Part shown: piece after piece, positions 28 to 10,767 of the stretch
Layout of the letters: every line of letters begins with the position of its first letter
Position numbering within the stretch: position 1 is the first letter of the stretch
IMG/VR virus record: IMGVR_UViG_3300031758_000178
Coordinates: 1 to 40,358 of that record
Source: a virus
Reading direction: 5' to 3' (one strand)
Length of the DNA: 40,358 nucleotides
Program-made: the position numbers and the translations under genes
The notes under the pieces: model-generated
What the model was told of the DNA's origin: nothing
Databases searched by the model: none
The model's input: the letters and a program-made list of their open reading frames with translations, nothing else

Positions 28-1356
28 TTATCTAGTAATTTCTTCCCAATCCATATGACCTAATATATTACTTCCACCACCGCCTACAGTATTAGCAGCA
101 ACACATAATGTAAATTCATTAGGAATACTTATAAGACCATTTCTTGTTAATTGATGATCAAATAAACCTGATCTATCTAATCCCGACATAGTAGTTCCCT
201 GATTAGAAGCATTAAAGAATCCACTATGTACAACACTACCTCCAGCAAAAGATGATCCTGTTATGTTATATTCAACTATAGAATCTGCACCTAGAGAAGT
301 CCATGATCCTCCAGTAGTAGTTCCTCCTTCTATTAATCTCCACTCATAAGTTCCTGTACTAATAGGTAAACAAGACATCGCTGATGGAATAGCTATACCT
401 TCTAGATTAGCAGTTTTTAATCTTATAGATACTATAGGATAATAAGTTCCTGCAACAGCCATATTATATGGAGCAGTAATAACTGTTCCTATAGATCTTG
501 ATCTACCTCTAAGTTCATAACCACCTTCAGATATAACTGTTGAGCATATTTGTCTTAAAAGTTTATTTCCAACTGATCCAGTTGTATTTTCTATTTCATA
601 TCTTAATGGTAAACAAGCTGTGGTTATATATGTAGTTGGCTCTATATTAGCATGTCTAAATATATGACATATACAAAATTGATTATCTATAACAAAGCCC
701 ATTCTTACTGATCCTACTCCTAGCCACTCCATATCCATCCATAAGATTTGAGCCTTAGTTATATTTAACTTAACACCTGAAGGACCAGTACCATCCATCT
801 TATCATAGTTCCAATCAACTTGAGGAATTGATGTTTCTACTAATACCCCTGTTACAAAACTTCTTTTTACAAAAGATAAAGTATCATCTTGTAATTCTAA
901 GCGAAACCCATTTTCATCATCATAATATCCTACTCTTTGTAATAATCCTGTTTCAGAAGGATTCATTACAAAAGTGCTCATAATAAGTAATGACTTACCT
1001 GGTTGATAAGCAAATACTTTATTAGTTTCTCTTGTTACTCGAGATCCTGGAGTTGCTACTACCTTAAGATCAACAAGACCTTTTTCAGGATTAAATACTG
1101 CTGTACCACCATTTGATAATTTTGTAGACCATAATCCATTATCACTATATCTAAAACTAGAATCAAAAAGAGTAAGTGGTTCAGATACTCTTTGTCTACC
1201 AAAAGCATCAAAAGCAACAGGAGGTAAAGGATTAATTACTGGTGTACCATTTGCTATTACACTTGAATTAATAGCATCAAGCAATTGTAATGATCTAAGC
1301 TGATAGGGAAAGTTGTTACCCTTATTGCCTTCTGTTTTTAGATTACCTATACTCAC
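28..1356 (-). CDS. Virion structural protein (fibre/tail-type)
   Basis: Encodes 442 residues from a GTG start at 1356. Residues 51-67 read AFGRQRVSEPLTLFDSS, a signature I associate with large structural proteins of marine and Bacteroidota tailed phages. The rest is Gly/Ser/Thr-rich, looks beta-rich, and shows no enzyme motif, signal peptide or membrane segment. I infer a tail fibre, baseplate or capsid-attached protein, but the exact site on the virion cannot be read from sequence. It is the last gene of the minus-strand block. A structured terminator lies just upstream (1416-1475), so it is probably transcribed separately from the two lysis-like genes before it. The stop lies 27 bases from the window edge. 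Confidence 0.7.
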   Translation of the reverse strand: MSIGNLKTEGNKGNNFPYQLRSLQLLDAINSSVIANGTPVINPLPPVAFDAFGRQRVSEPLTLFDSSFRYSDNGLWSTKLSNGGTAVFNPEKGLVDLKVVATPGSRVTRETNKVFAYQPGKSLLIMSTFVMNPSETGLLQRVGYYDDENGFRLELQDDTLSFVKRSFVTGVLVETSIPQVDWNYDKMDGTGPSGVKLNITKAQILWMDMEWLGVGSVRMGFVIDNQFCICHIFRHANIEPTTYITTACLPLRYEIENTTGSVGNKLLRQICSTVISEGGYELRGRSRSIGTVITAPYNMAVAGTYYPIVSIRLKTANLEGIAIPSAMSCLPISTGTYEWRLIEGGTTTGGSWTSLGADSIVEYNITGSSFAGGSVVHSGFFNASNQGTTMSGLDRSGLFDHQLTRNGLISIPNEFTLCVAANTVGGGGSNILGHMDWEEITR

Positions 1357-7309: not shown

Positions 7310-7696
7310 ATGTTGCAAGCAACTTACATCCGTCAGTACAGAAAACCAGGTTCTACAAAGACAACCTTTGTGTACAAAGTCGAATCTTCAAGTCCTGAAG
7401 ATTTAGCAGCCTTCGAAGCTGCGCAAGGCTCCTTCCATCGTGTTGATCCAAAGACAGGTACACCTGTTTGGTTCACCACTAGATTTGTAGGAGAAACCGC
7501 AGAGCTCATCGTCACCGATAATAACAAAGTTATCGCTGATATGTCCGAGTTTGAGAAAGCTCGTTCACTTGCTGAGCAATTCGGTGGAAACTTCGGTGAT
7601 ACCCTAGCCAACAAACTTGCCAGCAAGTTAGTTGAGCCATCCGCATCACCTAAGACCACACAAGATTCTAAGTCTGATACCATAGCAGACCTATAA
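7310..7696 (+). CDS. Conserved phage protein, paralogue A (ssDNA-binding-like?)
   Basis: 128 residues. Core: VDPKTGTPVWFTTRFVG (about 46-62), then VTDNNKVIADMSEFEKA and FGGNFGDTLANKLASKL, a polar linker, and the C-terminal end DTIADL. The gene at 8609-8986 encodes the same order of motifs (RVDPKTGETLWFTTRFVG, ADMSEFDK, YGGNLGDHLAK, ending IGDL), so these are paralogues. A compact beta domain, flexible linker and short acidic tip is the layout of small SSB-like proteins, but that role is only a suggestion. Its codons use more C-ending choices than the paralogue's. Confidence 0.7.
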   Translation: MLQATYIRQYRKPGSTKTTFVYKVESSSPEDLAAFEAAQGSFHRVDPKTGTPVWFTTRFVGETAELIVTDNNKVIADMSEFEKARSLAEQFGGNFGDTLANKLASKLVEPSASPKTTQDSKSDTIADL

Positions 7697-8608: not shown

Positions 8609-8986
8609 ATGGAAATCAATTATGCCCGCACCTACAAGAGTGCAAAAGGAAACACTGTATTCGTTTACACAGTAACAGGAAATGCTACAGAGTTAGCAGA
8701 TTATGAAAGAGTACAAGGTAGCTACCACCGAGTAGACCCTAAAACAGGTGAAACTCTTTGGTTCACAACACGTTTTGTTGGTGAGTCAGGTAGCTTAATT
8801 ATCACTGATAACAATAAAGTTGTTGCTGATATGTCAGAATTTGACAAACAAGCTTCACTAGTTCAACAGTATGGTGGTAATTTAGGTGATCACTTAGCTA
8901 AGTCAGCAGCTGATAAGTTAATGACCTCTAAGTCAACAGCTAAAGCAGCAGGAACACCTGCAGGTAACAACATCGGTGACCTATAA
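8609..8986 (+). CDS. Conserved phage protein, paralogue B (ssDNA-binding-like?)
   Basis: 125 residues, paralogue of 7310-7696. Shared blocks: DPKTG, WFTTRFVGE, TDNNKV-ADMSEF, GGN-GD and a final DL. The central domain is well conserved; the N-terminal 20 residues and the linker (about 98-118, Thr/Ala-rich) differ. Codons here are more A/T-ending, so the duplication is old or one copy came from another phage. Two copies of an SSB-like or host-interacting protein flanking a basic protein and RNA genes is unusual. Exact function unknown. Confidence 0.7.
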   Translation: MEINYARTYKSAKGNTVFVYTVTGNATELADYERVQGSYHRVDPKTGETLWFTTRFVGESGSLIITDNNKVVADMSEFDKQASLVQQYGGNLGDHLAKSAADKLMTSKSTAKAAGTPAGNNIGDL

Positions 8987-9076: not shown

Positions 9077-9157
9077 AAGTCTTTGATAATCAAGAGAGAA
9101 TGAAAGAGGGTTTAATACACCCTCACTAATTATCACTTGAGTCAAAGACTTTTTTTT
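9077..9157 (+). terminator. Large branched terminator with competing stems
   Basis: A 10-bp stem AAGTCTTTGA (9077-9086) with TCAAAGACTT (9142-9151) is followed by T7. Inside, GAGGGT (9106-9111) pairs with ACCCTC (9119-9124), and TGATAAT (9084-9090) can pair with ATTATCA (9129-9135). The last helix competes with the end of the main stem, an arrangement seen in attenuators. Confidence 0.6.
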
Positions 9158-9198
9158 CCAGTAAACTATTGTGTAACTAACTATATATCTCTATTAAT

Positions 9199-9369
9199 AT
9201 GGAAGATACTAAAAATTTAGAGTTAGGAGAGGTTAAGGGAGATGAGTTGTCTGACTCTCTCTCTGATCTAGAAGAATCGGATGAACAAGTTATAGAGAAT
9301 TATCTTGAATACCTCCGCGAGGTTAGGGACTCTCAGTATCCTCTATGGATGAGAGATCTTTATATATAA
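9199..9369 (+). CDS. Small acidic hypothetical protein (56 aa)
   Basis: 56 residues, strongly acidic: ELGEVKGDELSDSLSDLEES in the first half, then VIENYLEYLREVRDSQYPLW. ATG at 9199 about 40 bases after the branched terminator; stop at 9367-9369. The large RNA candidate begins right after it, so the two may share a transcript. The acidity and helix could indicate a DNA-mimic or RNA-partner protein, but there is no direct evidence. Confidence 0.5.
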   Translation: MEDTKNLELGEVKGDELSDSLSDLEESDEQVIENYLEYLREVRDSQYPLWMRDLYI

Positions 9370-10266
9370 GCAACCGCGGGGTATGCTTTACGTCATTGTG
9401 TTTTAAAGATATTGCCGCCTATGGCAGTGGGGGATAAGCCGGGTGACCGGTATAAAAGGTAGTGTGTTAACAAACACATGTCCTGCACTGAAGACTCTTT
9501 GGGTCCCGGTGTCCTAGTAGGCAAGTGAGTAACGGTTATGATGGAGAAATCTCTGAGTAACCACAGCATGGGCATATGCTGTTGAGTAGGAAACTACAAT
9601 AGGATAGAACTCATAGGGTAAGTGTGGAACTCTCTCACCAAAGGGGGAACTGCGTTATCCAGTATTGCGAGATCTGGTAACAGGATCTTAAGATACCGTT
9701 GATTGGTAGTCAACATCGGGTTGTCATAGTACGCATTACCCAAAAGGTAGTGAGCTATTACTTGACACCACAACCCGTCAAGTGCCATTTGTTATTAACT
9801 AAAAACTAATAATCAAAAAGCGTGTCGACTTATTGAGCTAAAGAATCTTATCTGCGTGTAATATAGCAGGTCAACGAGTACCGAAAGGAAAGTTGATAGA
9901 TAGAGAGAGTATATCTAAGGAGTTGCCGGGAGGTAATGAAGAGGCATCCACCTCACTTGGTAGAAATTAAAGTCTATGAAACTCAATAAGAAAAACTCGG
10001 GAACGAGTATAAACATTGATTCTGCTACCTACTATGGAGTAATCCCTAGTGTGTTCTAGTCTTGGTAACAAGGTGAGAATGGTAGTGTAAAAGGTCAAGA
10101 CTCAGCCTTTTAACTCCTTTGGGGGAGTATAAACTTGCTTAAGCCCAAAGCGTGGTAGAAATACCGGTGCACTGCATGAAGTTAGTAGGGTATACACCAT
10201 CCGAGTGAACCCTATAGGTTATTGAGATCAACCTAGGATATGTTGAATCATAGTAGATATATCCTA
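9370..10266 (+). ncRNA. Very large ornate structured RNA candidate
   Basis: About 0.9 kb without a credible ORF, more G-rich than its surroundings and packed with local helices. GNRA-capped examples: CCGG-GTGA-CCGG (9439-9450), GTAG-GAAA-CTAC (9586-9597), ACTCG-GGAA-CGAGT (9995-10008), CTTG-GTAA-CAAG (10061-10072). Longer pairings: CGGGTTGT 9717-9724 with ACAACCCG 9770-9777; GTTGA 9698-9702 with TCAAC 9710-9714; TAGGGT 10186-10191 with ACCCTA 10209-10214; TAGGTT 10215-10220 with AACCTA 10230-10235; GGATAT 10236-10241 with ATATCC 10259-10264. Size, phage context and GNRA density recall the ornate large RNAs GOLLD and ROOL; I cannot confirm membership by eye. No group I or II intron core is visible. 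There is no T-run terminator at the 3' end, so it may be co-transcribed with the next gene. Confidence 0.7.
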
Positions 10267-10317
10267 AATGGTCTTCTAAATAAACAAGTCAACCAACCCA
10301 CTCAAAATAATAAACCT

Positions 10318-10767
10318 ATGAACCTAGAAAAATTTGTACCAATTTACCAAAATGCAACAAGCAAAGATCTTGAAGCTATGGAACAACACCTACTTGATGC
10401 TATAAACTCACTCGTTAGTCAAGAAAATAATGACCCTGAAACTACAGAAGATATTATAGCAGATCTCAAGTTAGAGATATACTACATCCAAAGTTTGCTT
10501 CACGGTACCGTAACACCCGTATTCCCTGATGACTTTAAACAAAAAATTCATCCTGTTATACTTGGTGCTACCCAATGGGTATATATCAAAGATGGTGAAG
10601 TTCAAATAAGCATTGTTGGCGGTGGCTCAGGTCTTTATGGAGATGGAGTAAGAACCTTTGAGATGTATGACTTTAGAGAACATGATGTACAAGGTTATCT
10701 TACTGAAGATGAAATCAATGAGCATCTTAGAAACAATCCTTTCCTAAATATAGCTATGACAAAATAA
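10318..10767 (+). CDS. Hypothetical protein downstream of the large RNA
   Basis: 149 residues from ATG 10318. The in-frame ATG at 10240 lies in an RNA hairpin and gives an unlikely N-terminus, so I reject it. The N-terminal half is helical and acidic (LEAMEQHLLDAINSLV); the C-terminal half has VQISIVGGGSGLYGDGVRTF, a Gly-rich strand-loop-strand region. No catalytic motif recognised. It is the first protein encoded 3' of the ornate RNA, so it could be a partner or only a passenger on the same transcript. Confidence 0.6.
   Translation: MNLEKFVPIYQNATSKDLEAMEQHLLDAINSLVSQENNDPETTEDIIADLKLEIYYIQSLLHGTVTPVFPDDFKQKIHPVILGATQWVYIKDGEVQISIVGGGSGLYGDGVRTFEMYDFREHDVQGYLTEDEINEHLRNNPFLNIAMTK

Follow-up and report, generated by a model that had tools for sequence, protein, structure and literature searches.

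Positions 9370-10266 of the window (by which we mean the whole stretch of phage DNA analysed here, 40,358 nucleotides of IMG/VR record IMGVR_UViG_3300031758_000178) raise the question of what a phage keeps in about 0.9 kb that appears to encode no protein. The original prediction had read this stretch as a single ornate non-coding RNA resembling GOLLD or ROOL. ROOL is a giant ornate phage RNA that forms cages, and GOLLD also forms RNA cages, seen as a 14-mer by cryo-EM, its function being given as unknown (PMC12286853). We find three RNAs in tandem: a GOLLD-type RNA, a Pistol ribozyme, and a new RNA of about 100 nt. The likeness to an ornate phage RNA holds for about 740 nt, which are of the GOLLD type and not of the ROOL type, and the block is not one RNA: its final 155 nt consist of a Pistol ribozyme followed by a distinct small RNA, which other phages carry without an adjoining GOLLD. 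The ribozyme, situated between the large RNA and the last helices, had been overlooked. GOLLD and Pistol stand 4 nt apart, beside a new RNA that starts at the predicted Pistol cut in phages in which no tRNA gene was found and at a tRNA end in tRNA-rich phages.

Layout of the RNA block

The two ORFs named in the original prediction as flanking the block are present, and no credible reading frame was found between them on either strand, ORFs of at least 30 aa within 9370-10239 reaching 64 aa at most. The features of the region are the following.

9077-9157, plus strand: terminator-like element, a 10-bp stem (9077-9086/9142-9151) with a 55-nt loop and then a T run, upstream of the 56-aa ORF
9199-9369, plus strand: 56-aa acidic ORF, directly 5' of the RNA block
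9370-9715, plus strand: presumed variable 5' domain of the GOLLD-type RNA, assigned by position (as in GOLLD) and folding
9716-10108, plus strand: 3' domain of the divergent GOLLD-type RNA, aligned end to end with positions 1-416 of the RF02032 model
10016-10112, plus strand: terminal module of the GOLLD 3' domain, three covarying helices and then an AAAAGG...CCTTTT hairpin
10113-10172, plus strand: putative Pistol self-cleaving ribozyme, with P1, pseudoknot TTTGGG/CCCAAA, P2, and P3 with a GAAA loop
10167-10168, plus strand: predicted Pistol cleavage site between G and U, placed by analogy with the known Pistol cut
10168-10267, plus strand: new structured RNA of about 100 nt, starting at the predicted Pistol cut, with covariation
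10318-10767, plus strand: 149-aa ORF, downstream of the RNA block

The structural signs from which the prediction was made proved sound. Its four GNRA-capped hairpins are all there, and a loop scan gave five GNRA loops closed by at least four Watson-Crick pairs (at 9443, 9590, 10000, 10065, and 10158), the last of which belongs to P3 of the Pistol ribozyme; in 1000 dinucleotide shuffles the mean number of such hairpins is 0.15, and five are never reached. The 8-bp stem 9717-9724/9770-9777 is present and forms part of the first stem in the Rfam GOLLD model, and the raised G content is seen as a GC skew of +0.18 in 9501-10000. The plus strand of 9370-10266 folds with a z score of -4.84 (none of 20 shuffles as good), and the minus strand folds more weakly (z -2.05, 1 of 20 shuffles as good).

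No Rfam family matched in the window at curated thresholds; when 9100-10450 was searched by E value, two families, GOLLD and Pistol, stood out, and the other four matches had E values of at least 0.3. ROOL gave no match in the window at curated thresholds, nor up to E 10 over 9100-10450, and over the same interval and up to the same E value no second ribozyme was found at the 5' end of the block.

The terminator-like element at 9077-9157, whose 55-nt loop places it outside the list from our terminator scan (loops of 3-8 nt), suggests that the RNA block behind it may have a start (promoter) of its own. The 56-aa ORF has no family match and no tblastn match in the loci of a sister phage described below. 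The 149-aa ORF likewise has no tblastn match there and no relative in 50,697 phage records; its one weak PHROG match is to a family with no function assigned in PHROG. Neither the RNA block, the 149-aa protein, nor the new RNA gave a blastn or tblastn match in the phage records.

Elsewhere in the window, two paralogous small proteins, 51% identical, are encoded upstream of the RNA block (7310-7696 and 8609-8986), and in other viral contigs this pair was seen only in the sister phage, apart from one short match in contig L002. A protein encoded at 20001-20864 matches the Pfam family of spore photoproduct lyase (E 2e-27), here in a phage.

A divergent GOLLD-type RNA

The 3' domain at 9716-10108 matches the Rfam GOLLD model (RF02032) with 67.1 bits and E 6.9e-17, which is below the curated cut-off of 150 bits. 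Like GOLLD, the RNA has a complete 3' domain in the same order, a terminal GG...CTCAGCCT motif, and an AT-rich linker, and it shares with GOLLD a presumed separate 5' domain, carriage by a phage, and a length of about 740 nt. It differs from GOLLD in its score (67 bits against 150), its place in a divergent branch, and the Pistol behind it. By this match and by the covariation given below, 9370-10108 is a divergent GOLLD-type RNA and not a member at curated level; we use the label "divergent GOLLD-type" because the 150-bit score is not reached. The presumed 5' domain (9370-9715) folds with z -3.0 on the plus strand and -0.3 on the minus strand and its sequence matches none of the relatives' 5' regions. 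A switch in which the GOLLD 5' end would pair with the Pistol core was considered and rejected, since 14 of 100 shuffles were equally good.

A pattern for the GOLLD 3' terminus returned 30 viral stretches, of which 22 were GOLLD-like and 8 were dropped as non-GOLLD, both by eye; a stricter pattern for the GOLLD end returned no matches. One of the 22 is a 107-kb contig, IMGVR_UViG_3300031857_000053, that carries the window's phage (99.99% identical over 8.4 kb). Rfam detects GOLLD in 12 of 13 further loci, five at 170-328 bits and seven at 76-103 bits, one of the seven being truncated by a contig end. The window's own branch comprises six relatives, and the five detected by Rfam score 76-103 bits; L110, the nearest relative by BLAST (60% over 336 nt), is nonetheless missed by Rfam. 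One locus (L117) aligned badly and was excluded from the later alignments.

Covariation with these relatives supports the assignment. R2, a model that covers the last 93 positions and was made from the six relatives with the window excluded, matches 10016-10112 with 55.7 bits and E 3.4e-9, the next-best match being at E 0.68. In the 23-pair structure of this terminal module, 98.1% of alignment cells are paired and 11 of the 23 pairs have changed on both sides, and slid controls reach 40-55% paired. Over the whole 3' domain, RNAalifold predicts 90 pairs from seven sequences of the branch, 52 of them with at least one compensatory change and some broken in some sequences.

A second model, R1, when run over 41 records, recovers the window's two records and the six relatives from which it was built. 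In 10 other GOLLD records its best match lies at the GOLLD end in eight, weakly (E 0.004-0.26); in the remaining two there is no match (G053) or one elsewhere than the GOLLD end (G062). In Pistol-only records it gives weak matches in 2 of 23 (E 0.1-0.2). A search of 50 records with RF02032 returned nothing although one of them (G001) carries the window's own RNA, and it is not usable as a negative.

A Pistol ribozyme and a new small RNA behind it

The candidate ribozyme at 10113-10172 covers the Pistol model (RF02679, 1-68) completely, at 33.9 bits and E 4e-4, against a cut-off of 34.5 bits. Like other Pistols it is carried by a phage and has P1, P2, P3, the loop pseudoknot, and the conserved core: 22 letters are common to all 12 aligned Pistols (itself and 11 others). 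Its P2 has three pairs instead of four. On these features, 10113-10172 should be a Pistol ribozyme with a conserved core, predicted to cleave itself; the cut between G10167 and U10168 is placed by analogy with the known Pistol cleavage position after P3.

The decisive evidence for the putative Pistol of the window comes from the sister phage, which is represented by four records (99.9% identical over shared stretches, the longest 109,874 bp) and whose genes are 30-67% identical to the window's proteins and in the same order. In all four records a Pistol stands in the syntenic place at 51.1 bits, and the ribozyme with its 3' flank (window 10118-10219) is 73% identical over 110 nt between the two phages. 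Among 39 pairs in helices chosen by hand across Pistol and the new RNA, 12 have changed on both sides, 5 on one side, and none is broken; the pairs of P1 and P3 are among those kept by compensatory change. No GOLLD end was found in three of the sister records, and the fourth gave one place at chance level (R1; 13 bits, E 0.68). Two intergenic stretches of the sister phage (L008 1717-1871 and 2205-2438) fold with z -6.8 and -7.6 and may be repeats or further structured RNAs.

Judged by sequence comparison, the stretch from 10168 to 10267 is a previously undescribed, covarying small RNA. None of 4227 Rfam families matches it up to E 10, barring the few bases shared with Pistol, and its homologues in four loci (L249-L252) have no Rfam match up to E 0.05, again barring Pistol-shared bases in L249. 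Its helices are 10185-10191/10209-10215 and 10235-10244/10256-10265, with a loop GAAnnnTAGTA. Of the three consecutive 3' helices that had been assigned to the end of the large RNA, the first and third covary, and for the middle one only three shared pairs are modelled.

When 815 kb were searched with a model built from the window and the sister phage (R3), a third copy, which had not been anticipated, turned up in L108 (39 bits, E 1.5e-5). It lies in a GOLLD-carrying phage, with a tRNA gene on either side. A pattern for the core of the new RNA itself then gave 10 viral stretches, which amount to seven places when the four sister records, nearly identical to one another, are counted as one, and the records of all these stretches score at least 36 bits with R3. 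Run over 38 records, R3 found two and missed three (G067, G071, and G078) in which cmsearch on the loci detects the new RNA. Six distinct sequences give an alignment with 94.6% of cells paired and both-side change in 12 of 23 pairs (none of 500 shuffles as good; slid controls 34-51% paired), although it was fitted to the model, which favours structure, and the core pattern itself fixes some bases. In all six, a leader of 11-13 nt separates the AAGTT/AGTT core from the predicted cut or the end of the tRNA.

Pistol or tRNA as the boundary of the new RNA

What stands directly 5' of the new RNA falls into two kinds: a Pistol in 6 of the 10 core-pattern stretches (the window's phage, the four sister records, and L249) and the 3' end of a tRNA in the other 4 (L108, L252, L250, and L251). 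In L252 and L108, which share the same RNA sequence, and in L250, a tRNA-Gly ends at the first base of the new-RNA match; in L251 a tRNA-Glu ends 2 nt before it. At the protein level, the 14-kb locus of L249 does not match the window at E 1e-4, and its Pistol scores 49.3 bits; the activity of this copy is less sure because, by our reading, a G replaces the U at the predicted cut. The records differ in the same sense in their tRNA content. No tRNA genes were found in the Pistol-type records searched (G000, G001, G050, G006, and G077, that is, without sister records G075 and G076), and 34, 25, 24, and 23 were found in the tRNA-type records G078, G079, G067, and G071; this exchange is seen in three lineages of each kind, a small number, and in records that may be fragments.

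GOLLD, too, often stands near tRNAs. In 7 of 21 other GOLLD loci, a tRNA-Met follows GOLLD at a distance of 9-15 nt, and of the 23 GOLLD-carrying records, 21 were searched for tRNA genes and 17 have them (G057 and G063, whose GOLLD ends duplicate those of G056 and G060, are left out of the tRNA and Pistol-model counts). The association is not general: no tRNA was found in four GOLLD records, namely the window, the 107-kb record of its phage, and two fragmentary records (18-20 kb). The order in L108 is GOLLD, 11 tRNAs, new RNA, and tRNA-Gln; that in the window is GOLLD, Pistol, and new RNA. The best reading of these arrangements is that Pistol replaces tRNA processing and would separate GOLLD from the RNA downstream.

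To our knowledge, the natural role of Pistol ribozymes is unknown, and no paper naming both GOLLD and Pistol was found in the open-access literature searched. In its main text, the report on RNA cages does not contain the string "self-cleav" (PMC12286853). A precedent for ribozymes beside tRNAs exists in theta ribozymes at the 3' ends of phage tRNAs, which have been proposed as an alternative to protein tRNA-processing enzymes and which, like the Pistol discussed here, are small self-cleaving ribozymes at an RNA boundary in phage genomes; theta ribozymes have an HDV-like fold and process tRNA, whereas here a Pistol stands where other phages have a tRNA (PMC10879173).

The pairing of GOLLD with Pistol is itself rare. 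The Pistol model, run over 20 GOLLD-carrying records, matches only in the window's phage (33.9 bits; next best 12.0). We retrieved 40 Pistol stretches of 44 unique cores (the scanned set thus lacks 4 of the 44), one being that of the sister phage, and all 40 reach the Pistol cut-off. Unlike these others, in which neither GOLLD nor ROOL was found at E 0.05 within up to 1.5 kb upstream, the window's copy lies behind a giant RNA and before another structured RNA. Exact patterns for a GOLLD end followed by Pistol, which would miss variants outside the pattern, gave no other case in viral contigs or in a genome set of 84,980 species with one genome each: in the one viral-contig match besides the window's phage (L079) Rfam finds neither GOLLD nor Pistol, and none of the 57 genome-set stretches has the Pistol P1 and GGG loop. 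The pairing is known from one phage species, in two records that are 99.99% identical over 8.4 kb.

We consider it likely that the tandem is made as one transcript and cut by Pistol, which would act in place of tRNA processing. In such a scheme, all three RNAs would be transcribed as a unit, beginning with the roughly 740-nt GOLLD-type RNA, and Pistol, by analogy with known members of its family, would cut the emerging transcript at about G10167/U10168. The 5' product would be the GOLLD RNA, which would carry the folded ribozyme at its 3' end, terminate in a 2',3'-cyclic phosphate, and perhaps assemble into a cage; the 3' product would be the new RNA with a defined 5'-OH start. In tRNA-rich phages, tRNA-processing enzymes would make the 5' end of the new RNA at the tRNA 3' end; in tRNA-less phages, Pistol would do so without a protein. 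For the wider claim, that tRNA and Pistol are interchangeable punctuation releasing the new RNA class and, in this phage, a GOLLD-type cage RNA, the ribozyme taking over the processing role of tRNA in tRNA-less phages, we see the chances as evenly balanced. Were it true, Pistol ribozymes would have a natural function and the maturation of GOLLD would become testable: a natural swap would assign Pistol and tRNA the same job, and it predicts exact 5' and 3' ends.

The ribozyme might instead serve its downstream side only, that is, the new RNA and the mRNA of the 149-aa protein, with GOLLD having come to lie upstream by insertion and otherwise ending as in its close relatives. In the sister phage and in L249, small protein ORFs, and not GOLLD, directly precede the Pistol with its new RNA; a Pistol was found in none of 19 other GOLLD records; and in 30 of 42 other Pistol placements a same-strand frame of at least 70 aa ends within 64 nt upstream. 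The six closest GOLLD relatives have no tRNA or ribozyme behind GOLLD within 157 nt (L113) or 1.4-1.5 kb (the others), so that GOLLD itself seems to have no need of Pistol in that branch. Because the sister phage has Pistol and the new RNA without a clear GOLLD, the older partner of Pistol is probably the new RNA rather than GOLLD. Against a role confined to the downstream side, GOLLD and Pistol are just 4 nt apart, a spacing that resembles the 9-15 nt between GOLLD and tRNA, and the terminator scan (loops of 3-8 nt) gave no terminator-like site after GOLLD on the plus strand; cleavage would consequently set the 3' end of GOLLD whatever its original purpose. We regard the downstream-only role as rather unlikely.

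It is very improbable that the Pistol is a decayed, inactive remnant within one read-through RNA. Its score just below the cut-off and its short P2 would fit decay, but the 22 core letters shared with 11 aligned Pistols are kept, and the compensatory changes in P1 and P3, with none of 39 pairs broken against the sister phage, speak against it. A single new 0.9-kb class unrelated to GOLLD, which the lack of a curated Rfam match might have suggested, we hardly entertain, its simple form being already refuted: the GOLLD match runs end to end, with covariation among GOLLD relatives, and the last 155 nt recur in other phages without GOLLD directly upstream. A decayed coding region, for which the site within a gene array with small ORFs could speak, is equally implausible in view of compensatory base-pair change at the RNA level, strand-specific folding, and the lack of an ORF.

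The tandem of three RNAs, cut by Pistol, remains our preferred reading, and several other loci gathered in these searches hold structured RNAs of their own. In L153, a Pistol follows at a distance of 54 nt behind a weak match to manA RNA (641-983, minus strand; 37.8 bits, cut-off 55.2), another case of a structured RNA directly before a Pistol. The Pistol of L170 (655-717, minus strand) is surrounded by a dense tRNA array in a phage contig of 124 kb. The stretch 11863-12590 of L249 includes a Hatchet ribozyme match (48.5 bits, cut-off 51) and then about 470 ORF-poor bases that fold well (z -3.1); a 78-aa ORF, Pistol, and the new RNA come next, and the whole may be a further array of RNAs punctuated by ribozymes. 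In the tRNA array of L250, 7793-7975 resembles archaeal RNase P RNA, though below the threshold (35.6 bits, cut-off 84, E 1e-6), and may encode a phage RNase P-like RNA. In L251, a freshwater-1 RNA (RF02979; 9263-9325, minus strand; 72.4 bits) is flanked by tRNA genes and precedes the new RNA by about 110 nt.
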